From Neelides folsomi (lineage: Eukaryota > Arthropoda > Collembola > Neelipleona > Neelidae), in contig JAQGBZ010000127.1 in assembly GCA_034687125.1 (NCBI GenBank), positions 1 through 64,000 of the forward strand: DNA of 64,000 bases. Reading direction: 5' to 3'. The translations under genes and the position numbers were made by a program. Positions 23,156-61,000 of the stretch are shown piece after piece. Under the pieces are notes generated by a model, which was not told where the DNA came from, did not search any database, and saw only the letters and a list, made by a program, of their open reading frames with translations. How positions within the stretch are numbered: the first letter of the stretch is position 1; every line of letters starts with the position of its first letter.

Positions 23156-25999
23156 TTAACTAGAAGATGAGTCTTCATCAGAGATGAATTCTTTGCTGAT
23201 ATAATGTTTGTTCTCTTCGGCCTTTTTCTTCGGAGATGCTTTCTTTTTGGATGAAGGTTCTTTCTTAACTTTCGGCTTCGACTCGGCCTTTTTCTTTGAT
23301 TCTTTTTTCTAATAAGCGCAAATATAATTAGAAAACATTCGTGATTTGAACTTTGAGATGGAAATTCGAAAATTTATAAAAAAATATTTACCTTTTTGGG
23401 TTCATCGTCGCCGCTTCCCTTTCTTTTTTTTGCTTCCTAAAATAGAGTTTAAATATTTAATATATGGAGATGTTTATTATGCAGTTTTTATAATTTGAAT
23501 TTGAGTTCAAGATTCTATATTACCTTTTTCTTCGGTTTTTCTTTTTCTTTCTCCTTCGTTTTATCTTTCTTCGTTTTAGCTCCATCTTCGTCGTCTGAAC
23601 CTTCACTTGCACTCGAAGATGCATCGCTATCAAATCTATTGAAATATAATTCACGATTAAAACATTTTAAAACATGTTTTGCTGATTTTAGAATAATTTT
23701 ATATGCATATGAAATTAAAAACGTATAGTGTTGTAAATTAAAATTGTAATTATAGTAGGTATAAAGATTTTTAAAAAAACTTACTCTTCAGCTACGTCAC
23801 TGAGCTCCATATTGGGTTTGAAATCTTCATCATCTTCTGAATCTTCATCGCTAACTTCGTCTTCACTTCTTTCTCGAGCTTCTGCCTTCACACGAGCCAA
23901 GTATGCATCTGGTTCTTCCTCGGCATCACTATTGTCAAAGTCTCCAACGAAGCTTGGTTTATCCTAAAATTATAAATTAATGAATTATAATCAATACATA
24001 ACTAGATTAATACTTAATTGATACACATACTTATCATATTCACATATTAACTTATTCAATCATTGATACCCAAATTCATCAGTGTATTTAATTACCATCT
24101 TTCCTCTGTTCTTCACACGAAGGTTCTTAGCGGTAATGAAATCAAATAACTTGGGATATTCTTCCTTTTCAATGCTGCTAAAAGTGTGAACAATCCCAGA
24201 TTTCGTTTCAACTTCAAAGTCGAATGATCTGAATAAAAAAATTTATTTAGGATTAATGAGATATCACGGTTTTATTAAAATGTTTATTTCTATAAGAATC
24301 TATGAGATATTGGTTAAAATTATTTGGACACTAACCTTGTGCTTCCCCCACTTCGAGCAAAGTTGACACTCGTAATCTCTTCGAATCTGATATGAAGAGG
24401 AGGCTTGTGGACATATATGAAGCCTCGTTCGAGAGGATACATGTAACCGGCCGTGGCTTTGTGAGAACAACTCACTGCAGGAGTTCCAGAATTTCTGAAG
24501 ACAAAAACAAAATTTAAAAACATTAACAATTTTAAATGTTTAAATCGATGAATTTAAATGAAACATGTCACAAATAATAGTGTAATACACACCCAACGAA
24601 TGATCCAGGAACAGTGAGTTTTCTGTTGACCATCGCTTTCATTACCCTACTAACGACATCGTACATCGGTCCAGTAATTTCTCTTGACAATTTTCCACCA
24701 TACTTTGTAGCTAACTCCTCACTATAAGAAATAATAAAAATTGTTTCAAGTTTTAAAATTCATTATTCACTTTTACATGATGAAGATGACCCAATGTATG
24801 ATTTATATAAAAATTTTCGTATTCAACTCACTCAGACATAGGAAGTTCAATCGTAGTTTCTTCTTCCTGGCCAAAGAGAAAAGTTAAGTAGTGATACCGA
24901 GTTTGTCCCTGTTTAATCGGAGGGTCGAGACTGATAACGTAGAACATTTGACGCCCATCTTTGTGAGGAAGAAGGAAGAGTCGAAGAACAGTCGACATTG
25001 GAATTTTATAATCGTAAGTCTTTCCGTGAAGTTGGAAAAATGTCTGGAAGACTTTGATGTCGTAACGTCCTCTGTAATAAAAAAAATTAGTTTCAATTCG
25101 GAATACTAAAATGTGAATTCGAAATCTTACCTAGGTGTGAGACAGTAAACTTCTCGGAAAATGGCAATGGCATCTCCAACAGCGCTGATAATGCTAGCTT
25201 TTCCATGAACTTGTTGCTTGAACGAATCAACTGGATCGTCTCCGGCAAGTTCACTTGATGGAATATGAAAACGTAATTCCATAAGACTCACTGGTGCATC
25301 GTCATTCTAATTAAAATTATAAAATAAGTTTCCACATTAGATTAGATAGAAAAAATCTTAATAGAAAATGTCAATGAATAAATTAAAAGAATTACCTGAT
25401 GAAACTCAAGAGTGACTTCGTTTTTCCCTGTCATGCATTGAGAAACATATGAGAGAGGAACTTCAAAGTCCAAGCTGTTTGACACATCGAATGAGAGGAC
25501 CGATCCGGAGAATTTAGCTGTTCCCCAATTCCATCCTTTGAGACATGGCTCTGTTTCCAACATTTTATTGTCGTATTGGGAAGAGAAAAATTTCGCAACT
25601 TTCTCCTTGTCGGACTCTCGAAATCCGCCAAATCGATGAAGAGCACCTCCTTTGCTAAATATCCGCAACCCCCAGTTTCCGGCAAATCTCATCCATGTAA
25701 TGTTCTCAATGTCATTTCCGGTCAATTGCTCAACCTTTCCAGTTTTACTGTTCTTGAAGCTGATATGCGATTGAGTGAACTTCAACCTTCCATTTGCCTA
25801 AATTATAAAAACCATGTTATAATAAATCATCTTTGACATTATGATGAACTTATCTTATTTATGTAAATCGTTTTATAATAAGAATACAGAATAATAACCA
25901 AATAACCAACAAAGAACAAAGTTATAAAATTCATGTGCTTTTACTTACCATTGCTCCCCGGCTTTCAAAAAGCATGTCAGGAAAATCCAAAGTGTCCAT
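23156..25999 (-). CDS. SSRP1: SSRP1, FACT histone chaperone subunit, lacking the HMG box
   Basis: Eleven exons on the minus strand: 25999-25949, 25797-25396, 25306-25131, 25071-24832, 24721-24593, 24494-24336, 24228-24096, 23963-23785, 23635-23524, 23436-23392 and 23308-23156, giving 592 aa. Conserved family runs include [53 protein letters not shown] and [15 protein letters not shown]. These make up the N-terminal and middle PH-like domains that bind SPT16 and H3-H4. An acidic stretch (about 431-505) and a Lys/Glu-rich tail follow. The tail ends [13 protein letters not shown], like the end of animal SSRP1. The HMG box usually found between these parts (about 75 residues starting PKRPMSAY-like) is absent, and the introns there (42-150 bases) are too short to hide it. 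FACT removes and rebuilds nucleosomes during transcription and replication. Confidence 0.94.
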
Positions 26000-28210: not shown

Positions 28211-31200
28211 ATGGAGTGCTACGAGGACATGTTCAAGGAGATCACGAAGAAGCTCTACGGCGACGGCGGTCTCGCCGAAGTCATGGAAGCTCAGCAGTCT
28301 GGCCATCCAAATATCGTTGCCTACGACCCGGAGGCGTTTCGGCCAGACGGGACAGGTATCACTCTCGTTACCACGAATGTTAATGGAACCATCGTCGTTC
28401 AAAGACCAAACGAGAAGCCGACTGAAGGTGAACCACCAATCAAACATAAAATTATAAATTCGGAATTCGCATACTCGTTCCTCCGCTCTTTGTCTGTCAA
28501 CCGCCCATTTTATACAATTGAAATAGTCTCCAGATAGCATACGTATCTAGAAATCAATTTTATAAGTTTTATAACCATTTTTTAAATTATATAATTTAAA
28601 CTAGATTATAATATGGGTAGATAGTAGATGGTCAACTATAATTTTAACGAACAAACATTTTGTTTATTATTTGATTAGTTTGCAGTTTTAATTTAGCAAA
28701 ATTACTAAAAGTAGTAGTTGAAAGCAGTTCTTGATGTCTTGCATAATAAGTTTTTAGAATGAAATTAAAAGCATCTTTATTTTCATTCATTATCTTTAGG
28801 CTTTCCCTGTTTTGTTAGGGGTTAGGAGATAACTCGTCATAAAAGTCACTCATTGTTTTATAGTCTCTTCATGTAGCAATGTATGTAAATGAATAATACA
28901 TAATGGAGATTGGAGATATCGTTAGTTAATTATTGACTCTGGGCTTTAGGATATAAATATAAAATATGGATGACGGGATAGGAATGATTGGGATAGGAAA
29001 TAGCATATAGAAAATAAATAGAATACATGGACTTGCACTTGAACATTTTTGAGGGCAAAATGAAAGATTAGACTAATTATATGCCTATATTCTAAAACTC
29101 AAAACCGGATAGTACAAATAGTGTTTATAAGCGGGACACATCGACACTTGTTTTAGTTGTTTTATTTATTTTCCTATTTTTATTATTTAAATATACGACC
29201 TCGATTCGAATCGTGAATTGTCAAACATGAGTACTTTATATTTATATAACGGAAAGCCGTTGGAAATTCATAGTCTTCTAAATGGAATTTTAAGTGACAA
29301 TAATTGTTTTGAATTGGAAGGTGTTATGGTCGGAGAAGTTGGACCTCCGCCATCATCCCTTGAAGAACGATGGTTTGAGAGCGAAGAAGTTTTGTCCTGG
29401 ACGACGTCGAAGATTGCCAGGTTCAACCCGAGCCAGAAGGTATTCCGATGCGTCGACTGCGACTTTGTCGGCTTCCTCTCCCGCGTGGCCGAGCATTGGC
29501 TCGGAAACCATGCGTCCCTTAGAGTCTTTCAGTGTCCGAGATGTCCGTACACGAGCGCCTGGGCTCGATGTGTCCGGATGCATCTGACACGTCAACATGG
29601 TGAAACCCTCACCGACAATTCCCTGTGGAAAGAGAATCCCGTCCTTGAAGAGGTACACACGCATTTCTTAAATTAACAGATTATTACAATGATTATTCAT
29701 ATCGCACTTGTACTCGCTAGCTAATTGTTTTTTAGATAGTTAATAACATAATTATATAATTTTAATCTTTGCTTTACTCAATTTCCTAATATTGTGATCA
29801 ATGTTTATGTTTCAAAATTATTATTCATTATTTTATAATTTTTATTAATGTTGCGAGTTTAACGTATTGCTTAATTCTTTTAAAAAATAGTTTAATTTCA
29901 TTTAAAAAGAATTGTTTTATTATTTCTCTATAAGATATTATTTAAAGTCAAGAGAGTTGAATTTTAACGATTCTGTTGGCGAAATTTAATGTCGATGTGG
30001 AATAGCTTTAAATGTATGGATGAATGAATTTAGGAATTTATTGAGTATTCTATGCAGAGTCATGAAATGTAGTTTTAGTAGTTTAGAATGTAAGATAAGG
30101 CTTGCGTATCGCTTTATAGATAACGGGTCCGTGTTTTATGTCAGTACAAACTGCAGGTGACGAAGTTTCTGAACAACCTTAAGACTAAGGTTGAGCAGAA
30201 AGGAGAAACGACGACGCCAGGAGAGAAGCGCTACACTTGCCCTTACTGCCCCTACGCGACCGATCGCCGTGACCTCTTCAACCGCCATGAAAATATCCAC
30301 AGAGATGAGAAACCGTTCCAGTGCTACGTCTGCGATAAGCAGTTTAACCGGGCCGACCATGTGAAGAAACACTTTATGAGGATGCACAGGGATCACCCTT
30401 ATGATATCAATAAGATAAGAAAATATTTCCCCAAAGCTGCCGGCTCCTCGGCTCCCTTCTTCTCCTCCAATTCGAAGGCCAAACCGCCACCGCCTGATGA
30501 AGAAGATGATCTGGACGACGAATCCGCCCTGTCCGACTCTCTCATGTTGGAACAATCCCAAGAGAACCTCAACCAGATCCCCCATATCGCCTACTTCAAC
30601 CCGCCTGCTGCTCCAGGTCAGACAGGTCCCCTCCAAGGAATCCCTGGCGTCGGTGGAACCAAAAAAGAATGTGAGCACCATATGTCTCCCATCAACAATT
30701 CGACACTCAAATTTCAAAGTAAACAATGCAATATCGTTCGGTCTTTGTTATTTTTTTATTATTTTTTTGTCCAAAGACCATTTTATTTTATTTGTTTGAT
30801 TATTGATATTAAGCATTGGGGGGGAATCGGAGTGGAGTATTTATTTTAAATATTTTTTATAACAATTGTTTATTATTTTGTTCGTTTATTTAATGTTATT
30901 GTACATTTTTATTTGTAATTTTCGAGAATTCTCATAAACAATTTTAATATGGATTTGGAATGATTTTATAGCCAAGTCAAAGGGAAGCAAGAAAAAGAAA
31001 TCTGGAGAGAAAATGTACACATGTTCTTACTGTCCATGGCAAGGTGTGGACAATTGGTGTCTTAAACGTCATCTCAACACACACATCAAGCCTTTCCTTT
31101 GTGCCCTCTGTGACTACAAGGCTGCTAGGAGCGAGCGACTTGCCACACATGTCCTCAAAGTCCACAACAAAAGGGTTTGCCACAAATGTTCTTTCCTCGC

Positions 31201-45900: not shown

Positions 45901-48900
45901 TTTGCTCTTATTTGAGAAGAGGAAATGAGTAATATGATGCCACAAAGGAAATTTATCCGCTCTCGCGAGATGAAATGAAATAACTATAATGAAATTTATA
46001 TATTGTAATCATAATGGTTATCATAATGAGGCTTCTCCTGGACAGACAAGGTGTGGTTCGCACATCGCTGAAACGGTGTCAGACCACAAAACACTGCGGT
46101 GACCAATGTTGGAGAATCTCAAAGCCAACCTGTGGCTCCGACCTGAGACTCTACCACAATGGGTGCCAGTTGAAGTCAACCAACTGTGGGTGAGTCCATT
46201 CTTTATCATCTTATTTCGCTTTAAAATCCGCCCAACTCTCGTTTGCCTCCTAAAGCAGTTAAGTGACGGCAATTTGACGAATGTCATTAAATGCCTCCTG
46301 CTTCTCAAATCTCAACACCAGAATTGTAATTTAATGCATTGGAGAAACATACCCTTAAATTATCATTATGGTCGTTATTATTAAATTAGCATACTATTAT
46401 GGTCAAAATATATATTCTTATATGGGGATTAAAGACGTATTCTTCTTATACTCTAATTCCTTTAGAGTTTTTTTGATTGTAGTTAAATTGCAATTTTTTT
46501 CGCTTTTGATAGTCTAATTAACGCCTTTTTTTATCCTAGAGCAATAATAAGATAGCATCATGATTAAACGCTTAAGAGATAATGACAATGACATTTAAGC
46601 ATACGAGTTAAAAAAAATTGCAGGAGTTGGACATTAAGGGCGGAAAATGAGTTAGCTTAATTTAATATTTATATACTTTGTCATCAGGTTTTACTCCGTT
46701 TTACAGAAAAGTGAATTCGTGTAAAGCAGGAAAATAATATTTAGATTTTTGATTTGTTAAAAAATTAATGTGTCATGCTAATTTTAGATGAATTTCTCAG
46801 GTCCAGCGAATCGACGTTCTAGTAGTTCACTCGTTTGGAGTAAAAAGTAAATTTAACAATTAGGAATCACGATTTGAGGGAAGGAGGTTATTAAGATAAT
46901 CATCCGCTCCTTTCTTCTTTATTCCCGTTGAGCATATGAAAGTAAATGATAAGGGGATTTAAATTAAATAAATTTGTAATTGATGTGAGGAAAATGAGAT
47001 TAATGGTTCTCTGATTCTCATCATTCCCTTTTTCATACGATTCTCCCCAGACAAACCTGGGCCTTATTAACAGCTCTAATAATTTTAAATTGCCGAGCCG
47101 AGTTAGCATTATTCTTATTATTTGTTTTCTTCCTCTCATAATTGCCAGATTCGCGCAGCTTCCTCTCTCACACAATGTTTTATTGAAAGAAACAGTTTGA
47201 AATAATGGGCGTCAAGTTTCCTCATACTTTTATTATTGCTCATTCAAACGGAGAATTCACTTATCACCATACGTGATGCATGATAAATCTAAACCTTTTA
47301 TATTCTTCCTTTTCAATTCGAAGAGTTTATAATTCTAGGGTCGCAATTTCCAAGTGTAATAAAAGAGAGAAGATGTATCATTACCACCTGGAAATTAAAT
47401 GGTTCAGAGAGAAGCTCGTCCAGAGTCGTAGCGTGAGGCGGTCCGGCCCCTCATTTTAGTAAAAATGTACAGGGTCACACAGAATGGATTAACTTTTATT
47501 ATATCTGTATAATACTATCCAAAACATAGGTATTATGTATATATAGGTACATTTTAAACATTTTATCGCATTTCAGATTCCAATCCCTTATTCCCTAGAC
47601 TATAAAACCCTATTTTCGAGACCTTTAGGTCATGAAAAAATTTTTACCATTTTTAACCAAATTTCACTGGAATTTTTTCTAATAATTTGTGAATGTTTCT
47701 TTATTAGTAATTATTCTTTAATAGTAATCGGGACTTTAATAGGAATTTAGAAGTTCTGACATTTTTTTATATATTTGAATTTACAATGTAAACTCTTTTG
47801 CAATGTGCCCCTATATTTGTTATAATATTTGAAAAACTTCATAATTATTAAAATATTGTAAAAAGTAATTTACAAAAATCTTTAGTAATGGAAAAGTTAA
47901 AATCTAAATCTGAGATAAACGAGTTTAGATTGTAAATTTACATTTGTATTTAGGGGTCAATTGTTATATGGAATTTTAGGCCTGAAGAATATTTTTAAAT
48001 TGACCTTTTTTTAGAAAAATTTTATTACGAAATCAGATTTAGGAAAAAATGAATATTGAAATTGAAAGTTGGGACCTTCAGGTACCAAATTTTTTTAAAA
48101 TTCAGCGCAAATTTTTATTAAGAACAAGTACATAATGCGAAATTTTTTCAATTTTGCTTTAATTTCTATTTAGTCTTAACTTTCAAGCCCCCTTATATAT
48201 TTTATATTTATGTGGATTTTTAACAGGATCTTAATGTCCGAACATTTTTTTTACTATTTGTATCAGAGCAGAAATTTCAAATATTGAATGCATTAGTTAA
48301 ATTAGTGTAAACTTTGTATTATGGCCATATATTATTTAAAATTTTCCCTCAAAGCATAAAAGAGCTATCTAAGACTTATTAAAACTTGATTATTTTTAAT
48401 TAAATCGGCCAAAGTCAATTATATCTAGTGCAAATTGGGTTCGAGGTACGGCCCTCTTGACCGTCCGGCCTGGAGGAGCCTCCTCCTCTGACCTCCCTGG
48501 CGCTACGCTACTGAGCTCATCCAAAGGGAATGCGGTGATCTTACAAAGCACGCCTTTGCAAACTACACTGTGTTTGAGAAACTTCCATCCACGCCGTTAT
48601 TAAATGGTGATAAAAAGGATCATAAAGACCATTCCTATATACTTATTTATAAAGGCGTTTCAATCATCAATGGCACTTGGCACCCAGAAGAAAAAGCAGA
48701 AGCATATAAAATCAAAGTACATTTTTTGGTCATAAAAAATAAGGATGTTTATACTTCCTCATTATTCCTGATATCCTCTCGATCATGAAATTGAAATATC
48801 TAATAAATAGTAAATCTCCTTTTTTGTGAACCTTCAACATTCCTCGGCATGATTCGGCGACCTATCAATCAAATTGACAATTACAGCTTTATTATAATAT

Positions 48901-50472
48901 CAGGGTTTGATTTAATTTCTTATGTTTCAAATTGTTCTAGAAAACACGTGTTTGAAGTCCCTATGTCTTACTGCATGAGTACAAAGAGGGCTGAGCTCGG
49001 ATGTCCCACTGATAATTGTGAAAATGAAGCCATAGGAGAAGTATGCGGTTCAGATGGGAATTTGTACGACAACTTGTGTGAGCTTAACCTTCTAAACTGC
49101 GGGTATGATATTCAAATTCTTTACATCATTATTTTCATTATATGGTATTTTCCTAATTTTTGAAAATGAATGAAAATGCCTGTGAGTCAATGCGATTTCT
49201 TTTTTCCCTTATTTGCCTAATGATGAATTTTTTTAGGCCGCAAAGATCCCAAGTGGTGAAAGTTCCAATGAAAAAATGCTCGGAAAAGTCAAGCAGATGC
49301 AATATCATCAAGTGTGGGACAAGCGCCGACCCCGTTTGCGGAACTGATGGGAAAACTTACAAAAATTGGTGTCTCTTACAGTTGGCCACTTGCAGGTGAA
49401 ATTAATGACCATCTTTTCATTTCTTTTTCATTTTAATCAAACATATGGCTTTTATCTCTCAAAGTATCAGATTCAGAATTTCCAATAAATTGAATTTCTT
49501 TGTCCTTAATAAGCGTTTCATGTTTCAGGAAAGGAATTCAAATGGCCCATTGGGGATCTTGCACGAATCTCACGCATCCTGATCAATGTGTCAAGTCCGC
49601 CTGTCCCGATGACTTTGGCAGCGACTCCCCTGTTTGTGGATCTGATGGGAATGTTTACAGGTTGAACATTTAATTAAAATAGTGACTGAGAGTTAATTCA
49701 ACTGGATTAATATGTACAGGTCGGAGTGCGACATGAAAAGGGACACTTGTGGGCAGCGGGTCGTTGCGGTTCCCTTGGACAGATGCCAGACGACGAAGTT
49801 TTGCAGCTCCGTATGCGAGAGTCGTCGTGAGTTCGTTTGTGGGTCAGATGGGAAATTCTACAGGAACGAGTGCGAGATGAGAAACCTAAATTGCGGGTAA
49901 GAAGGACGTCTCATAACTTACATTTAAAAATTGTTGAATTGGCTTAAATGAGTCACAGTGGTTCATCAGTGGAAGAGTGACAAGTGACACTCAATACGTG
50001 CTTCCACAATATGGCATTTGTTTGTGTGTACTTGCTCCTTGAACTGTACTTTTGTTCAATTACACTCGAACTTAATGGCATATTTGAATGATTCCCTGTG
50101 TTATTATCATTTCCCTCTTGCTAAATCGACATCTTAATTGTGAGTGATTAACAAACGCAGGAAGCACATGTACGTCGTTCCCATGAAGAGATGTCTTGCT
50201 GCATTCCAGTTTCGTGGATGCTCAAAAATGTGCCCAACCGAGTTTGACCCAATCTGTGGCTCCGACAATAAAACATACTCTAATGAGTGCTTCCTCGAAA
50301 TTGAAAACTGTAGATCCAGATCTCTGGTAAGTAAATGGACCATTCATTGAGCTTTTCTTCACATGTTGGCCCTAATTGAAATTTATGTTTTTTTTTCATT
50401 CAGGTCGGGAAGAAGCATCATGGAAAGTGCGGGCAGCCTGTTCTAGAAGCCAAGAATTATTTATACAAATAA
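36920..50472 (+). CDS. Secreted protein with nine Kazal domains
   Basis: Eleven exons: 36920-36983, 43364-43486, 44243-44387, 45511-45672, 46046-46189, 48941-49102, 49237-49395, 49529-49660, 49720-49896, 50161-50326 and 50404-50472, giving 500 aa. The first encodes a signal peptide ([18 protein letters not shown]). Nine atypical Kazal units of about 50-55 residues follow, each with six Cys, a short C1-C2 gap (CPRSC, CDHKC, CPVSC, CGDQC, CPTDNC, CNIIKC, CVKSAC, CSSVC, CSKMC) and a core like VCGSDGKTYxNxC. Most exon ends fall just after the fifth Cys, so each exon holds parts of two units. Only unit 7 is split by an extra intron. Kazal domains inhibit serine proteases or bind matrix and growth factors; the agrin/follistatin-like spacing suggests an extracellular role. 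Linkage of the first exon across 6.4 kb is inferred from phase and signal peptide. No transmembrane or anchor segment is seen. Confidence 0.87.
36984..43363 (+). other. Long first intron of the Kazal gene
   Basis: 6.4 kb between the signal-peptide exon and first Kazal exon. Only short ORFs without family resemblance occur (for example 38681-38932 and 40074-40274). No additional Cys-rich Kazal-like exon was seen on either strand. Long first introns often hold regulatory elements, but none can be named from sequence. Confidence 0.55.
45017..45060. repeat. GC-rich imperfect hairpin in a Kazal-gene intron
   Basis: Arms GAGCGGCGG at 45017-45025 and CCGCCGCTC at 45052-45060 are exact inverted copies. 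The sequence between is also GC-rich and partly complementary, standing out from the AT-rich intron. Confidence 0.6.
46190..48940 (+). other. Long intron of the Kazal gene with an AT-rich insert
   Basis: 2.75 kb without coding potential. A 1-kb very AT-rich segment (about 47460-48420) is flanked by GC-rich edges sharing GTCCGGCC in the same orientation and GTAGCGT as an inverted copy (47431-47457 and 48455-48512). This may be the remnant of an inserted element; no ORF or clear terminal repeat was found. Confidence 0.35.
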
Positions 50473-51430
50473 CCAATTTACTCACTCACAAGCAATTTGA
50501 TTTATAGATAAAAAAATTCCCTGTGTATTTGAATAACTTTCTGTACCACTACTTTTATGTATTTTTTATTATTTTGTATAGCAGATATTAGGAATTGAAA
50601 GGAGGCTATACATGCAAAAACACTACCCATATTCCGTGTTTAAGGGAAAATGAAGTCTGAATGAATCGAGTTTGTAATTTATATTTGTTAACGATACGCC
50701 TATACATATAAATATACAAGTTATTTGTTATCCGTTGTTGTTTGTGAGTATGTGGACGGACTATAGGTTATATTTTGTTATAATCTTTTACATTTTGTAC
50801 GTATTTTGTTACACGGTTATATTCACACTTTTTTTTATTAATTAATATATTTGTGTTAAGTTTAAACTCAATTGACGCTATGTAAAATTTGTGCATTTGA
50901 GATCATTTTCCGTTGATCATTGTTAAAGGTTCTAATTGTTAATAATATTGACGTTAATTTTTAAATGAAAAACTCCCGAATTCCCCTCTTCCCTTTGCAA
51001 TGCTTCATGCCCTTTATAAGTTTTATACAAGACATATTTACAAATATGTTATTCTTTAATTTATAACTTAATCTTGTCACAAATAAACGCAAAACAGCTA
51101 ATCAATTGTCATTAATTTAACTATATTAATTAATCCCGATATTATTGCATTTACAATTAATATTTTTATTAGGAAGCTAGTAAAAACATAAGATGTGTAT
51201 ATTTTGTTACAACCATACACAGCACAAGGATAATTATTATAGTTTTAATCCTTTTATATTTTATAATCCTTGGTTTTAATCAAATAATGACGATAAATAA
51301 TTCAGGTGTCATATGCAGTTTCATATGAGTTTCACAATTGTTAAGTATGGCAAATATTGGACAAATATTATACATATATATATATATATTTTACTATTTA
51401 ATACGTCTTTTTAGATATTTCTTCAAAAAA
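50473..51430. other. Tail-to-tail 3' region of Kazal gene and dipeptidase-like gene
   Basis: About 960 bases of AT-rich DNA between converging stop codons, with a TA microsatellite at about 51372-51390. No coding potential seen. Confidence 0.5.
51372..51390. repeat. TA dinucleotide microsatellite
   Basis: Run of alternating T and A, roughly nine units, just downstream of the dipeptidase-like gene stop. Confidence 0.7.
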
Positions 51431-54400
51431 TTAAGTCGTAATGCACCCAATATTTTTTCCAGGTATAATTTTGTTAAGATCAGTCATATTTATACGGCTC
51501 TGAATTGGAGGAATTTTCTTTTCATCGTCTCGAACCTATACGATTAAGTTAATTACTGATAGCATCTTTTAAATTATATAAGAGTATGTAACATTATATT
51601 GTATTAATTAGGAAAATCAATTAAATTGTAAAAAATATTAAAAAGTAAAAGTACCTTTTCTACTTCCGCAAGAACACGAAGAAAGTTTTTTCCTGCTAAA
51701 AGCTCAAGTTCATCGTCAGTCCATCTTCCAGTTTCAATAAGAGCGCTAAAGAGATTATGGAACTTTGAAACGTCTTCAAGTCCTCTGGGAGTTCTGAGTA
51801 AGTTAAAGTAATGACAGATCAGTTAATACATCAGTAATTATCTTTATCAGAATAATCAGTAAAAGTATTGGAAAAAATATTTCTCAAGCTATCGCCTTCT
51901 TGACAGGGAAGTGAGTTTACTATGAAAGTTGAGATTGCAAGAATGTGTGAACATTCTTAAAACTAGTTTTAGAATAGATAAAAGGATAATGTGGTCATTA
52001 TCACCATTATTCTATCTTCTCCTTTTCATTAGATTTACAACTACAAGTATTGAGGTTTCTTGTCGAAGGTAAGATAGTGAAACAGAACTCACTTGGATCA
52101 AATTCCATCTACCTAGTATATGTAAGATAGAAATATCTTATACCTCTGACCTGACAAACAAGGAACTAATTGCAAAAAATATTTACATAATTTGCGGAAA
52201 GACTTTATGGCACAATTCGTTTACAGTTAATTTCTATTTAAACAAGCAAACTCTATTTGCATTTAATTTTATCAATACTAAAAAATGGAATAATTTTCAA
52301 AGTAATTTTCTTGGCTGGTTATAACCAGCCATAAATTTAACAACTTTATCAATTTACTAACAATCCAGTAAATGCAATTTTGTCTTAAATCTCCTTACTA
52401 TTTTATTATTAAGAAGGAATTTATATTGGAGGCGCTCCATACAAGAACAATGGTATTTTATAAAATATTTGTTCATAAGGAAGTGAAGGTTAGATTTGGT
52501 TATTCGAGCATTAAATGGTTAACCTGCTGATTCCATCAAATGCCGCCCCAATGCCAACGTTCTCCACCGACGTCTTATTCCTAATGTACTCGATATGATC
52601 TAAAAGTAAAGTTCGAAAAAATGAGAGTAAACAAGAAAGAGAACATTTGTAACTGTATTCACGAACCCACAACATCTCGAACGGTCACATTCCCCATCCA
52701 TAGCTCATTCCCACACTTGAGAGATTCTGGGTGGAAGGCGACCATCACCAGACCGTCTCTTTTCCTCTTCACACAACACCCAATTGATACAATTGATACA
52801 TTGACAAAGAAATGCAATTTACACATACTAGTTGTATTTGTATATAAAAGTAGTAATGCTTTTGTAGCATCGTTCTTACGACAAGGTTCAGAACATTGTC
52901 GGGAACATTCCTGCTGTGATCACAAAGCGCCCTCGCCCCCGAATGAGAAAATATGACCGGGGATTTTGAGAGAATGAGAACTTCTTTCATGGTGGCTATT
53001 GAACTCCTCGAAGCGTCCACAATCATCCCAAGTCTGTTCATTTCCAAGATGACGTCCTACGGTGAGAAACTCATTTTACGACATATTTTATTGCCAATCT
53101 CTCCAAACGAGTTCTTATTTTGAGCATCGTTTGTGTGTCTTCTTCGCATTCTATGGACTATATGGATAATGGCCCCATAAATATATTTATTATGAGATGT
53201 ATTTAAAATATTTAGATTCATCTCACTTCACCAAATTGAGAGAGGCCAAAATGATTCGGCTTTGGTCGCTCGGTACCATTTGATGTATGATGATGTCCCG
53301 AGTCCACGTTCCCGCCGTCGGCCCTGAAGCCATCGCGACCAATTGAATAAATGTGAGCAATTAACATGAAAGAGAGGATTATTTGAGTACCACGGAGTGC
53401 TGCAGAAGTTTGTAATGGCAAGAGAGCGGACTCCGAGGTCGTAGTAGAGCCGGAGGACCCCGAGACTCGACTGGATTGAATGACCCCCTCCGATGGAAAT
53501 GAGATTCGCCACGTTGTCGCCCTCCATCGCTCGAACCAGCCCTGGAGCCTCTAATTTTACTTATGATCTTCCTTAATAGGAGAGATTAATTGAAGCTTGA
53601 TGAGAGAAAGAGGAATTTAAAGAGTGAGAAAGTAGGTAATGAAACCGGCAGTTGAATCCACAAACTTCAATTCGTTGCTGAAGTTTCCGATCAACCGCTT
53701 AATCACATCGATTTGCTCCAATGTTAACGATACGGCATCTTTGAATTGACTTGAGCAATCCACGTCGGCCACCCAAATCTATCAATTACCACGCTTGTTA
53801 CATTCGTCACATTCCATCTGATGCTTACAATTTACATATAACTAGTATTTATTCTAATTATTAGTTGTATTCTTAATTCATAAACTTATTTCACCTGTGC
53901 TTTTACTCTTCCGGCTTTCAGTCGAGGAATGTCAGTTTGAGAGTTATTAAAAAGTGACCATGGCTTAACATGTGACAAGTCTTGAGAGAAATTCAATTGA
54001 CTCAGATCATTCTTGAGGTATTTTCTTAAGTTTGAAGGGAATTCATTCCTCCTTAAAATATTCAAATCATTAACTTCATTTGAATATAAATGCATATTTT
54101 ATGTACAACTTAAGTACTAACATTAAGTACATAATTATGCATTACACGTTATTGTTTCATTTATCAGAGTTTACTAATTGAAATAAAATGTATTTGGACT
54201 TTCTAGTGTAATAGGTAAGCAGTGTAAGTTAAGGTATATGTTCCAATAAAAATAGTATTAATATTGACAGGTTATTAATCAAACGGTAGAAATGATTTGC
54301 GACAAAGAGCTTAAACAAAATACCTGAATAATAAACGAGTTCAATCATTCTTTAAGATTGATGTTTGTGAGTGGTTGTAATGGAGTGTGTCCAAGTGTGT

Positions 54401-54724
54401 AACTATCAATAACACCTCATAAAGAATGTATCTAAAATTACCCAACAATGAGCGGGACTTTTGAGAGGAACTCTTCAGCACGTTCCATTGGAGTCATTTC
54501 TCTGACAAAGAAATAATAGTAGATGACGGCCGGCGTTAGGAGGAGAGTTAAACTCAGGATTGAAAATAGAACGAGTCCAAGTGTTCCACATCCTTCAGAA
54601 AAGAAAAGAACAATCAAAATGATATACACACCATTGGCCTTTCATATGGATATTTTAAGCTGAGAGTTAATTGATTAATTAACAACGGTCCGAACATACG
54701 CCATCGGAGCCAATAGCAGGCCAT
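51431..54724 (-). CDS. Membrane (renal) dipeptidase family protein, predicted catalytically inactive
   Basis: Eleven exons on the minus strand: 54724-54700, 54592-54442, 54051-53895, 53778-53646, 53550-53391, 53323-53227, 53056-52880, 52766-52667, 52599-52524, 51793-51655 and 51535-51431, giving 439 aa with matching phases. A hydrophobic helix near residues 12-35 suggests a type II membrane anchor; no C-terminal GPI-type tail is seen. Family sequence is clear: [73 protein letters not shown] and [10 protein letters not shown]. Compared with human DPEP1, the metal and substrate residues are replaced: His20 by Arg60, Asp22 by Glu62, Glu125 by Gly176, His152 by Asn203, His198 by Arg258 and Asp288 by Ala353. 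His219 and Arg230 remain (279 and 290). The intact frame suggests a pseudoenzyme rather than a decaying gene. The start ATG is the first in its exon; the exon itself reaches back to 54775. Confidence 0.88.
52312..52331. repeat. 20-bp perfect palindrome in dipeptidase-like gene intron
   Basis: TGGCTGGTTATAACCAGCCA equals its own reverse complement. It lies in the intron between exons 9 and 10 and could extrude as a cruciform or be a dimeric protein site. Confidence 0.8.
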
Positions 54725-56883
54725 GATCCTCTGAGGGTTCTTAATCAGGAACGCGCCTTGAGGGAATGTAGCACCTGAGAGTTTTAATTAACAAAATATA
54801 CACTTGGTTAGATTTGTAAGGCGAGTGTTGGTCAGTAGATTGAATTCTTTCTCGAGTTAATCCCCCCTATTATCCCGACCGACTGGCTACTCATGAAGAT
54901 AATAACGATAGATTAAAAGAGTGAAGATTGCTTTTTTGTTCATCTAACAGCCTTATGATGGCCATAATGGGAGGATGAGCGAGGGGCTGCAGATTGCAGC
55001 CAGCACAAAATCGCTTTATTAATTTAAATAGGCTCGGGCGCCTGGTAAGACGTTGAAAAGAGACGTTGGACAAAAGTCGCATTAGACTACTGCTAATACC
55101 AAATTAAATAACTTTGAATTGGCCAATTTAAGTTTAAAGTTATTTTAACTTGATGTTATCTGACCATACTTGCAGGCGCAACCATATTTTAATACAACTT
55201 CTTGTTCATACAAGTTTTATTCGTATTCGTTCTTTAAATGTGAGTTAGTGTGAGTTGAGAGAAAATTTAAAGAATTCTATAGCCAGACATTAAAATATTA
55301 TTCGGGTTGATATTTAAGTGTCAGCTTAAACAGATTGAGATGTAATGATTATCGTATATTTAATAAAAACAATTTTTTCTTAACTAGAATGGTCATCAAT
55401 GGACATTTCTGTTGAGAACTGCCATAATAATTTAATTACTGACAAAGCTCGTAAATGTCCATCCTGAAAATAGTTATGGAATTTTTTGCAAAAGAATTTA
55501 TATTGCATTTTAAATTTAAATAACTGGTTTAATTTCATAAGAGCTTCCAATTGTAAAAAGCATAATGCCTTTATGTAGCTACTTATTTCAATAGGAGCAA
55601 AAGCGGATGAGAAATGAACAAGTAATTTGCTTTCTATAAAGCAAAGGAAAAGTTATTCAATTGAAATGGTTTTAACAAAAGAATGAGAAAGTTAACAAGT
55701 TTTTTCAACTTGGTAAAAGGATATTAATTTTAATGTACGCACGAGAAAAAGGCAATGAATGAGAATACAGTTCCGTTTGGAGGAAAATGAAAAGAAGGCA
55801 AAAAACCGCCAGTTGCATTATAAATGATCAAAGAGTCGAAAAGGAGTAAAATTTGGTTATTGGGGTCAGGATAAAGACATCTTCACAGCTCCCGATGAAA
55901 AGTCCGGCTAATACGAAGGAAGAATTAGTCATTGAAAAAGTAATTAAGAGATCCTCCGTGAGAGTGAATGAATGGGGAGATAAGCGATCACCGCTTCACC
56001 TCACTTGACCGGAGGGAGATCCGAAGGAAAGGGCCGATTATTGGGTGAGAGAGTGAGCTACGGCCTGGATATCTTCACAGCTCACAACCTCAACTGGTCA
56101 TCGTTTCCTCTTAGGAAAGAATCGTGTCAGCCGGATGATTAAACCCCCGTGATTGACATCTTCTGTGCCAAATTAACTTGTATTGTCTCGCCCTCTGCGG
56201 ACTTCATTCATTTGGCATTCCATCGCGAGTGTCCGAGTGACCGGGCGGGCGGTTGAGACGCCCTGCTCAAATAAGGGAGCCTGATGAAAGGAGACAATGG
56301 CCCTCGCAGCGGCCGATCAGAGTGATTGATGCGGCTTACGGTACACAACCACGCTCACACATTCTATAATCTCCCTATTAATATACTCTGGCCAGTTAAT
56401 ACTCCTGACCACATGAGCGTCAAGAGTCGGAATGGCCAATCTACGGGGCCTAATTAAACCAAGGATGTTCATCATCCACCTTTGGGAGAACTCGGGGAAG
56501 AAGAGGCGGGAAGGCCGCGAGGCAGGTCCGAAAATAGAATGACATTTTTTGCATCCTTCTTTTTTACGGGGCTAATCATCGATTCTTATTTACGATCCCC
56601 CCACTTGCCACAATTGTAAGGGACCTACATCGAGCAGGAGACCCACTTCCTCCGAGGACCCAGTTCGTCCCATCTTCGTCCTCGTCACCCTCCGCCCCGC
56701 CGGCTCCCATCGTCAATTCCGGCTCGACAATATAAAAGTTGGGTGTTGGGCCATTTGGCCGCCATTCGTCTCTCAAGAGCTTAAACTCCTTCCCGCCTCT
56801 CCCAAGAGCATGACAACTTAACCTCTGCGTGTTAACCACAATTTGTTTATTTTGATTAAGGAGAAATAAGTTAAATTCTAGTA
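54725..56883. promoter_or_regulatory. Head-to-head 5' region of dipeptidase-like gene and secreted-protein gene
   Basis: 2.2 kb. A 5' exon of the minus-strand gene extends to an acceptor at 54775, and its leader lies further right. The interval 55.9-56.8 kb is GC-richer and holds the promoter of the plus-strand gene. No additional gene seen; the minus ORF 56576-56902 has no family resemblance. Confidence 0.4.
56731..56737 (+). promoter_or_regulatory. TATA box of the secreted-protein gene
   Basis: TATAAAA in a GC-rich setting, 150 bases before the start codon at 56884. This spacing leaves room for a transcription start near 56760 and a short leader without an intron. A TATA promoter fits a tissue- or stage-specific secreted product. 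Confidence 0.55.
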
Positions 56884-58040
56884 ATGGAAAAGTCAATTGC
56901 ATTGTTGGGCCTTGGCCTTGTGATCGTTGCTGTTGTGTCAGCCAGTGAGTTCGGAGAAAGCAAGAACCTGGTCAATTCGCCCAACTTTGTGTCTCCCAAC
57001 TTCCAATACCAAGCACAAGCCGTTCATCAAAACTCGTATACAGCTCCTAAAACCATTGGAATTTCCTCAAGAGATTCCTACTCGGACGCTGCAGCGGAGT
57101 CGCCAAGTGCCAACTTTGGAATTCCGACTGCCCAATCTCATGGACAAACTCATCAACACCAAGGAGGAGAAATGGAATACGGAGGACAAAAGTTCCACTA
57201 TCAAATCATGCCAGTTCAATCTTACGACCAAGGATATGGAGTTGGTCAAGAAGGTTAATTTAATTTAATTCTCTTTAAATCGTCAATCTTATTAATTTAA
57301 ATTGATCATAATGATTTTCTCAATTTTCTTGTATTCACTTCCTTCTCAATTTTAACTTTTAGAGGAGGAAGACGATGAAGGAGGTCTTTTCGGTGGAAGC
57401 GGACTCGGCGGAGCCAGTTCAGGAATTGGAGGAGGAATTGCCGGAATCTTGGGGCTTAAAGGTCTTAAGAAGTTGAAGGCAGTGAAAGCCATCAAGGCGG
57501 TCAAAGCAGCCGGTTTATTCCCTCCCATCCTTTTCCCACTTTTGCTCCCATTGTTACTCATTTTCCTCCCCATTCTCCTCATCCCCCTCATTTTGCCGGC
57601 CCTTCTCCTTCTCTTCATCCCAGTCCCGGTCGTCACCATCCCATCAACTGGAAGAACCGGAGGAGAATCAAAAATCGGAGCAACCGCCAGACTTGCCAAG
57701 GACATTCTCACCAGCGAAGAATGTGTAGAGAGAATCTCTTGTGAAATTGGACATTTTGCTCACAAATACTCTGCTGGGCGATGGGTTGACATGTAAGAAA
57801 TATTTAGATGAGAAATTCCATTTTAATTGAGTTCAGCATTAAATAAAACAAATTAGAAATGTTGATTAACTGATTATAAATTAATTTAATGATCTCAATT
57901 TGATTTACAGGGCCTTGGAAAAATCACCAGTAAAGAGTCAAATTGTGAAGAGAATTTCAAGAGCCTTCCAAGCCAAGGAACCTTGCGGAGCATTCAAATG
58001 CAACCCAATGGCTAAGCTCCGAAGATCATTCAATTTTTAA
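56884..58040 (+). CDS. Secreted protein of unknown function with cationic and Leu/Pro-rich hydrophobic block
   Basis: Three exons (56884-57253, 57363-57792, 57911-58040) encode 309 aa. Residues 1-20 form a signal peptide (MEKSIALLGLGLVIVAVVSA). Residues 21-123 are Gln/Ser/Tyr/His-rich and probably disordered. An acidic-Gly stretch is followed by repeated Lys-Ala/Val steps (residues 154-173, KKLKAVKAIKAVKA). A very hydrophobic Leu/Pro/Ile/Phe segment (about 174-216) comes next. The C-terminal domain has four Cys in two pairs (CVERISC and CGAFKC) around conserved-looking HFAHKYSAGRWVD. The basic-then-hydrophobic order recalls arthropod Osiris/DUF1676 proteins, but I cannot confirm that family. 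A cuticle, eggshell or membrane-associated secreted role is a guess. A polyadenylation signal AATAAA is at 58500-58505. Confidence 0.85.
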
Positions 58041-61000
58041 ACCCTGAACAACGAGATTTAAAATCATACCGTTACCATTATTATTAATCAAGTGGTGGAT
58101 TTGAGCAAGCGGCACAGGGAAGGACAAAGGATTTGACTCACTGTCGTATTGACTTCTAACGACGACGTGTCGACGTGTCGGCCCGTGACGGCCCGACAGC
58201 TCAATTGACAACTTGACACAGACTGACCTTGACAAATGACTACGACCTTATTATTTCTAGCGACACTCTTCCTACCTCCAACCTTATACTGTTATTACTA
58301 CTTACATTATTAAGGTTTTACTTTCTATCGGTTTTTGTTACTTAAAATCCTCCTATTTATTATTTATATTTTTATGGACTTGGACTTTCTCTCACTCAGC
58401 GACTCTTCCCTCTGCCTTTGTTTCATTCTTTTCAATTATTATTTAAAAGTGCCATTTTGTTATTAATTTAAAATTGTTTTATTTTGTTATATTTTTATCA
58501 ATAAAGAATTTAGAAAGAATATTTAATTTCATTGTCATTTACACCTACTAAATGTAAGTAAGTCATTTATCCATCTAACTATACAATTAATAATCTTGTA
58601 CGTTAGTAATACTTAACTATTCTATTACATACAATAGAATACCGGAACTTAAACAGTTTAATACCAACGCCTCAGCACAAACTTGGTATCATGTCATTAT
58701 TCATTATTAACTTTATCTTACTCTTGCTGATAAATGTCTTAATGTAATTAGATTACCTTTAGAAAAAAATTCATGATATCGCTGGGTTCATCAAAGGTTA
58801 ATTCCTTTAAAGTTAAACGAGTTATGAATGTTCTACTTCTGTCTCAAACGTTTAGAACAAAATTGTTTTTTTCTTCAAGAGATATTGACAGAGATTGACT
58901 CTAAAAGCCTTCGATGATCACTTGGAAGTCTGTTGATGAGGGATGAGAGCTGGGCCAAGTAATTTAAAAGATCCCAATCGATAAAAAATTAGAAGCTAAA
59001 TATATTTTAAACTCTTGAGGTTGCAAATCTCAGATACTCTCATCATTGTTTCTGGTATTAAATATATCATAGTTGGAATTCAAAACGCAAACTATTCTTC
59101 AAAGCACCAGTTGGAAAAGATGTAAACATAAAGTGGGGAATGTACAGCTTGAACCTCTTATTGTAAATCTATCTGAATGGGTGGAATGATTGAATGCCTT
59201 TATGCTTCCGCATCAGATATTTAGCTTGGCTTCATTTTACAAGCCCATGAAGATGATATTGAATATTCTATTGCCATTATCCATCAAACTAATTTACTGA
59301 CACTGATGCTAAAAACCTGGCCCTGTGTATTGTTGCTACAAATATAGCGTCATTTCAATGAGCTGCACCTCACATTAAGAAATGTCCATTACAATATAAA
59401 TAGAATGAGAGGAATGTTGGGTGGGCAAGGGATGGGAGAATGAAAGCCATAAATTAACAATTAGAGATTTGAGTCGCCGGATAGAGCGATTAAAAGAACA
59501 TGGTTACACTTAGGAATGGGTCAAATATGGAAGTGGAGCAGTCCCATCTTGCTTGTTCTCACACCCTATTACATTGGTTGGGAGAGAGGAATGGACATAA
59601 TTATCCCTTTTAGGGTAACACAAGAAGCCATTCATCTCGCAATAGACACCTGGTAATCTCACCTGAGTTATACCCGACTTCACCTCTTTATTGTCCAATT
59701 ACAGATACATTGCTCATTTCCTCTTTTGTTTTCTAAATTGATTTATTTCCCTTGATCATAATGATGATAGGCCCAGAAGAAGAAGACTTAAGCGGTGAAT
59801 ACAAGTTTGAAGCAGTAAATTTGTTAGTGCATTTCTCCCTTTGAGATGAAAGATATCCTTGCAGTAATTGTGATGTCTTCATACAATTAAATTTTCCATT
59901 TCTAATCCCCCTATATAAGCTAATATAAAAATACTATTTTTTATTCAAATCACTACTTATGCTCAAAGTAAGTATTGATGGATTATATCAAACATGTATA
60001 AAAACTGATATATTGATGGGTATATCCAAATATCTGTATCTGTACTTGAATAATTATTAGCACTCCTTTTATAGACAATTGGCTTAAAAGAAGTTTTCAT
60101 AAAATCTCAAGTTTCAATTGAAAGGATTCGTTTCAACTTTTTGTACCAATATTTATACTTTAGCTATAGAGGCTTACGCATTCGCTATGCGGCTTAAAGA
60201 GGATAGTAAAGTACGAGTATAAAAGACAGAAACGGGCAGATATTCAGAATAATGGCTCACTATTAGCTGTTACATCTCAACAAGGATGAGGGGTATTATC
60301 TCCCTTAAATGTCAAATGAACCTCCATAAACTGTCACACGTCGAAAGAGTAAAAAGGGGTGAGTCGGATTAAAACATTCTTTATCATTTTTTATTTTTTT
60401 ATCTGTGACAATACGCATCTCTCTCAAATACACTTCTTGCATAGTTTTAGGTCGAGACGTGGATTTGCGTAAATATGTATTTATGAGAAACCCACTCATT
60501 TCACTTTTCCTTGTCAACGTCCAAGCACGTCGCTGGGACTTGATTTCGCCTCGTTCATTGCCAACAGGGAAGCTTTTGTGATACCAGAAATGGGTAGCAA
60601 GGAGAGATGAGACGTTCTCTTATCAGATCGTCTGGAGAGAAGATCATTCCATGACTGAGAGAACCCGGCATTCCTCACTCACTCTCTTCCCTTATCTCAC
60701 TGATCCTCCTCTTTTCTCACCTTTGCCTCTTTTATGCCAAATATTGCGGAACTCATTATTCAAGAAATTTTAATATAACATAGAATAAATCAAAATGGAA
60801 ATAAAAGATAGTATAAGAATAAATTCACCTTACATAAATACATTAAATGTAAGATAAGTAATTAATTACCCTTTTATTAATGTTGAAGTGAGGAGGTTTT
60901 TGATAAGGTAAGTGATAAGTTTTTTTTCTTTAAAGAATTTAATTAAAGGATTTTATAATTGTTTTCCAAAGGCCCACTCAACCCCAAAGGAAAGCAGGGG

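Follow-up and report, generated by a model that had tools for sequence, protein, structure and literature searches.

The contig of Neelides folsomi analyzed here carries a gene of the M19 dipeptidase family in which other amino acids stand at six of the eight positions for metal binding and catalysis. The gene lies in a stretch of 64,000 nucleotides (contig JAQGBZ010000127.1, assembly GCA_034687125.1), referred to as the window, and its predicted product belongs to a known class, the M19 non-peptidase homologs, in which it is unusual for the extent of its site loss. The reading that we favor, at a probability of about 0.7, is that of an extracellular pseudo-dipeptidase, tethered or secreted by means of an N-terminal hydrophobic segment, with a scaffold under selection and a function most likely exerted by binding.

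The gene comprises 11 exons (1320 nt with the stop codon) and encodes 439 amino acids (Table 1). The initial annotation had described the frame as open over eleven exons, and its start, stop, and coordinates proved exact. All 10 introns are bounded by GT-AG and range from 67 to 730 bases, and there are no in-frame stop codons. The protein matches a single Pfam family, Peptidase_M19 (PF01244), scoring 292.5 bits where the cut-off is 26, over residues 92-401 and profile positions 31-318 of 319, and its membership in the family follows from this curated score over the domain. Spliced alignment returned an identical gene model, which is a consistency test only since the query was the window protein itself.

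Table 1. Positions of the M19 gene and its diagnostic residues in the window, and of the split paralog on its own contigs. Codon and segment positions of the window gene were counted by hand; equivalent residues of DPEP1 are in parentheses.
Feature	Position	Strand	Remarks
Exon 1	54700..54724	-	Start codon ATG at 54724
Exon 2	54442..54592	-	N-terminal hydrophobic segment, residues 14-32, about 54578-54522
Exon 3	53895..54051	-	Arg60 AGG 54050-54048 (His20); Glu62 GAA 54044-54042 (Asp22)
Exon 4	53646..53778	-	Cys119 (Cys71)
Exon 5	53391..53550	-	Gly176 GGA 53491-53489 (Glu125); Asn203 AAC 53410-53408 (His152); Cys205 (Cys154)
Exon 6	53227..53323	-	HHH loop between PWAD and GLSQFG
Exon 7	52880..53056	-	Arg258 AGG 53008-53006 (His198); Cys286 (Cys226)
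Exon 7, retained residues	His279 52945-52943 (His219); Arg290 52912-52910 (Arg230)	-	
Exon 8	52667..52766	-	Cys318 (Cys258)
Exon 9	52524..52599	-	Ala353 GCA 52543-52541 (Asp288)
Exon 10	51655..51793	-	Conserved GLEDVSK region
Exon 11	51431..51535	-	Stop codon, last base 51431; Cys436 close to the C-terminus, common to the active paralogs C402 and C297
Split M19 gene C101b/C810	C101 190408-174286; C810 3017-3849	- (C101); + (C810)	Asp288 replaced by Gly

Other open frames in the window match SSRP1 of the FACT complex (25342-25797, minus strand), C2H2 zinc fingers (30124-30849, plus strand), and a Kazal-type inhibitor domain (48807-49163, plus strand). Two more on the plus strand have no Pfam match: one at 56875-57258, the start of which resembles a signal peptide by eye, and a Gly-, Leu-, and Ile-rich one at 57356-57796.

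Aligned to human DPEP1, the window protein has Arg60, Glu62, Gly176, Asn203, Arg258, and Ala353 at the positions of His20, Asp22, Glu125, His152, His198, and Asp288, and keeps only His279 (His219) and Arg290 (Arg230), so that the six losses and two survivals listed initially are right at every position. Residue numbers are those of mature DPEP1, which the alignment reproduced, and the precursor numbers are 16 higher. The zinc ligands named for the precursor are H36, D38, E141, H214, and H235, i.e., 20, 22, 125, 198, and 219 in the mature protein (PMC6372189). Four of these five are replaced in the window protein, where His279 alone is left from the HxD pair, the bridging Glu, His198, and His219; from the trio of His152, Arg230, and Asp288 it retains Arg290, with Asn203 and Ala353 at the other two positions. 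M19 homology, replaced catalytic residues, and an open frame are thus found together, which is the combination that defines a pseudo-dipeptidase. With so much of the site gone, the protein should neither hold two zinc ions nor cleave dipeptides. The loss of the binuclear zinc site, as first proposed, is supported at the residue level by the replacements at HxD, Glu125, and His198.

The best solved relatives are DPEP1 (PDB 1itq) and DPEP3 (PDB 6vgo). The homology with human DPEP1 extends over residues 46-407 (E = 1.4×10−74, 43% identity) and includes four cysteines as well as His219 and Arg230, whereas the replaced residues, a longer loop after PWAD, and the lack of a hydrophobic C-terminal tail set the window protein apart. 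Human DPEP3 is similar in having changed catalytic positions on a kept scaffold (Phe, Tyr, Leu, and Asn for His152, His198, Arg230, and Asp288). However, the two differ in what they retain: DPEP3 has HxD and the bridging Glu but no Arg230, and the window protein shows the reverse. DPEP3 reportedly has no dipeptidase activity. It is still listed as an enzyme in one review (PMC7555588). MEROPS recognizes a class of M19 non-peptidase homologs (M19.UNW), and one cluster of this class has been reported from the blowfly Lucilia sericata (PMC4826915); the likeness to this arthropod protein is one of class. Drosophila CG6154, another M19 protein from an arthropod, is about as long (434 aa), but it keeps H71, D73, E184, H257, and H278 and resembles the active paralogs rather than the window gene (PMC6372189).

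The assembly (75.1 Mb in 840 contigs, the window gene being on C127) was searched with the M19 profile and with protein queries, and M19 exons were found on contigs C101, C297, C402, and C810 in addition to the window. Both searches scored the best candidates only, and the family counts are therefore lower bounds. Three of the genes (C402, C297, and C101a) have all eight catalytic residues, so the second, active paralog that had been suggested as worth seeking is present threefold. The spliced models of the paralogs are partial at one or both ends, with a full start in C402. A further gene, C101b, runs off the end of its contig, and the exons on C810 are probably its beginning, as judged from their complementary coverage; the two parts together hold seven of the eight residues, with Gly at Asp288 (GIGAGFDG). 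The matches listed outside the window include no near copy of its M19 gene and are paralog exons of at most 66% identity. The window protein is 45-46% identical to C402 and C297. Exon lengths of 157, 133, 177, and 76 are common to the window gene and the paralogs at most places, while the first intron is missing from C402 and that between exons 5 and 6 from C297. Third-position GC is 0.28-0.29 in C402 and C297 versus 0.46-0.53 in C101a, C101b, C810, and the window gene. The mitochondrial contig of the same assembly (15,157 bases, 31% GC) has trnL2 between cox1 and cox2, the gene order of Pancrustacea.

Conservation was assessed against the 80 top-ranked among at least 588 bacterial relatives; six of the 80 loci were left out by the requirement for a single open frame holding both QFW and PW. 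All eight catalytic residues are present in all 74 relatives compared, a set that is biased toward close relatives by the choice of the best 80 and toward conservation at certain motif columns, His152 included, since the search patterns held the motifs G[GA]QFW and [TV]HxCNxPW. At columns conserved in at least 95% of the set, the window protein keeps 2 of 8 catalytic residues versus 65 of 82 other residues (P = 0.0031, one-sided Fisher's exact test). The other positions are kept in 35 of 45 cases at the 100% columns (P = 0.0065) and in 74 of 101 at the 90% columns (P = 0.0092). The corresponding catalytic and other counts at 95% are 8/8 and 72/82 for C402, 8/8 and 68/78 for C297 (these two models being 19 and 24 residues short of their stop codons in the alignments), 8/8 and 74/78 for C101a, 5/6 and 58/61 for C101b, 2/2 and 13/17 for C810, 8/8 and 71/82 for DPEP1, and 4/8 and 67/82 for DPEP3. 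Noncatalytic retention is slightly lower in the window protein than in C402, C297, C101a, DPEP1, and DPEP3, which is compatible with some relaxation. All four cysteines shared among animals (DPEP1 71, 154, 226, and 258) are kept and presumably form disulfides; they are not conserved in the bacterial relatives. The description of the scaffold as well kept therefore stands, on the noncatalytic positions and the cysteines alike.

A branch codon model (330 columns, the five M19 genes of this genome) rejected ω = 1 for the branch of the window gene (2ΔlnL = 39.8), a result in which the size of ω carries no meaning because synonymous sites are saturated, and in which selection after the loss is inseparable from selection before it because the branch also covers the time before the loss. 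An estimate of ω = 0.013 for this branch (one versus free ω, P = 0.013) was discarded as a saturation artefact, the branch length being at its bound (54.6). Subject to saturation and to the time before the loss, the retained positions and the rejection of ω = 1 indicate a scaffold kept by selection, and the conservation statistics support that the scaffold and its cysteines are held in this way. The initial annotation had proposed selection for another role; the selection is borne out to this extent, and the role itself may be adhesion, ligand binding, or scaffolding.

The window gene and the four other M19 genes of the genome form one clade against DPEP1 and DPEP3 in a rooted tree with 19 of the 74 bacterial rows (support 98). 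In a topology test on five trees with hand-made backbones and six bacterial rows, the best placement of the window gene was beside C402 and C297 (AU 0.965 and 0.972). Grouping it with the C101 pair, or setting it at the base of the other four genes, was also acceptable (AU 0.06 to 0.10), and a position beside C101a was borderline (0.054 and 0.047). A sister relationship to C101b was rejected at AU 0.025 when the catalytic columns were included and at 0.015 when they were left out, and the Asp288 losses in these two genes are therefore treated as separate, that in the C101b/C810 gene being apparently independent. The codons at His20 and His198 are AGG in the window gene versus CAC or CAT in the paralogs; all three bases differ, and a loss in the very recent past is thereby disfavored. 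From the tree placements and these codons, the split of the window gene from its paralogs is old, an age that applies to the split and not to the date of the active-site loss.

The hydrophobic segment at residues 14-32 (19-residue mean 2.29) may either anchor the protein or be cleaved off as a signal peptide. The last 60 residues contain no hydrophobic stretch (best 19-residue mean 0.59), and a C-terminal hydrophobic GPI signal is accordingly absent. DPEP1 carries a GPI anchor. An N-terminal anchor had been proposed to replace the usual GPI anchor in connection with the lost active site, but this connection is not supported because the active paralog C402 has a comparable segment (19-residue mean 2.64) and a hydrophilic end. 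Past the aligned region C402 extends 19 residues and C297 extends 24, both ends being hydrophilic. As the layout of the termini is shared with an active paralog, it is unrelated to the loss. In exon 6, the loop of 18 residues between PWAD and GLSQFG is longer than in DPEP1, DPEP3, and the paralogs, and its HHH-bearing stretch of ten residues after PWAD occurs only in the window gene among the family genes of this genome in which the stretch was read. The same loop has RHHM in DPEP3 and is variable.

In a pseudo-dipeptidase of this kind, the N-terminal segment would lead to a cell-surface or secreted location, and the emptied metal site would bind no zinc and perform no hydrolysis. A ligand may occupy the emptied pocket, in which zinc-binding histidines have given way to Arg60 and Arg258 while Arg290 is still present; alternatively, the protein may bind a partner, possibly an active paralog. 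Enzyme activity could be supplied by the three family genes with complete sites. A bolder and quite unlikely version holds that fixed positive charges took the place of the two zinc ions (Arg60 and Arg258, together with the kept Arg290 and His279), which would make the product a metal-free protein of the cell surface that receives or carries anionic ligands. Along the sequence, the remaining changes show no significant clustering around the catalytic residues (5 of 20 positions near, 12 of 62 far; P = 0.40), and a pocket rebuilt for a new ligand gains no support from this test.

Two explanations would deny the gene its altered function. The altered residues would be an artefact of the gene model if other exons or splice sites restored the active ones, which is scarcely credible: splice sites are canonical throughout, exon lengths match those of the paralogs at most places, and each altered motif sits within a long conserved exon. 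No exon restoring HxD or the bridging Glu of GVEGGH was found in the genomic sequence around the gene; transcripts with such exons were what the initial annotation had named as able to overturn its proposal. In a tblastn search of the exon-masked window with the active paralogs and DPEP1, the best 30 matches listed had E values of 0.30 or worse, and outside the exons a scan of 46001-60000 yielded no string of the HxD, EGGH, or GGD type. Two stray strings from the masked motif scan, THSC at 51948 (intron 9) and one resembling LSH at 58019, are taken as chance matches. Recent inactivation, in which the active site was lost first by chance and the frame is still unbroken on its way to decay, is very unlikely, even though conserved noncatalytic positions have changed somewhat more than in the active paralogs and selection after the loss cannot be told from selection before it. 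It would have to account for six separate site changes, two of which involve codons that differ at all three bases, in a gene free of stops, frameshifts, and splice breaks, and for catalytic sites lost far beyond the remainder. Among 2000 copies of the coding sequence evolved neutrally in simulation, the share still free of stops was 9% after 0.05 substitutions per site, 1.4% after 0.1, and zero after 0.2; the amino-acid branch of the window gene is 0.67 long, which allows a loose comparison only. On these sequence-based grounds, the gene does not look like one in simple decay.

Two others grant it a function of a different kind. The protein may act as a prozyme that pairs with active C402 or C297 through the family dimer interface, perhaps with a cysteine of the C-terminal region, and controls activity, stability, or location. 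DPEP1 forms disulfide-linked dimers, the window protein, C402, and C297 have Cys436 and the residues around it in common (GCITT, QCITS, GCVT), and the best place of the window gene in the tree is beside these two. However, identity to them is only 45-46%, they continue beyond the shared cysteine region where the window protein ends, and the tree test also leaves room for a place with the C101 pair or at the base of the four. Enzyme-pseudoenzyme pairs are known, e.g., the mitochondrial processing peptidase (PMC11266112), and such pairing is unlikely here without being far-fetched. A changed enzyme with a relocated metal site, for example one built from the HHH loop and the kept His279 and acting as another hydrolase or a one-metal enzyme, would draw on the restriction of that ten-residue stretch to the window gene among the family genes read there, and on the migrated catalytic residues known in other pseudoenzymes (PMC10211241). 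With Asp288, the bridging Glu, and HxD all gone, we regard it as highly improbable. The loop is also a variable one, and DPEP3, reportedly inactive, has HH there.

Open-licence literature yielded no recognizable description of an arthropod M19 protein with these replacements, and viral contigs scanned with the window protein contained no relative. M19, dipeptidase, and DPEP are absent from the main text of a 2024 review of pseudo-metallopeptidases (PMC11266112), and on this account the family looks under-studied as a source of pseudoenzymes. In a Drosophila survey, 8% of the genes for enzyme-like proteins were classed as pseudoenzymes (PMC12869072). The family model labels the window protein a peptidase, which is a trap for annotation. 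In the inflammation of mammals, nonenzymatic roles have been described for DPEP1 in neutrophil binding (PMC12128987) and suggested for DPEP2 (PMC12283963), and a part played by the enzyme activity of DPEP1 in its phenotypes could not be excluded (PMC12128987); in a protein that does both, enzymatic and nonenzymatic roles are hard to separate. If fixed charges did take the place of zinc, orthologs with the same arginines would be expected across crustaceans or insects, and an enzyme whose substrates are peptides and leukotriene-like molecules would have turned into a receptor or carrier. A natural homolog without most of the active site but with the scaffold would reveal which surfaces selection keeps after catalysis is lost.
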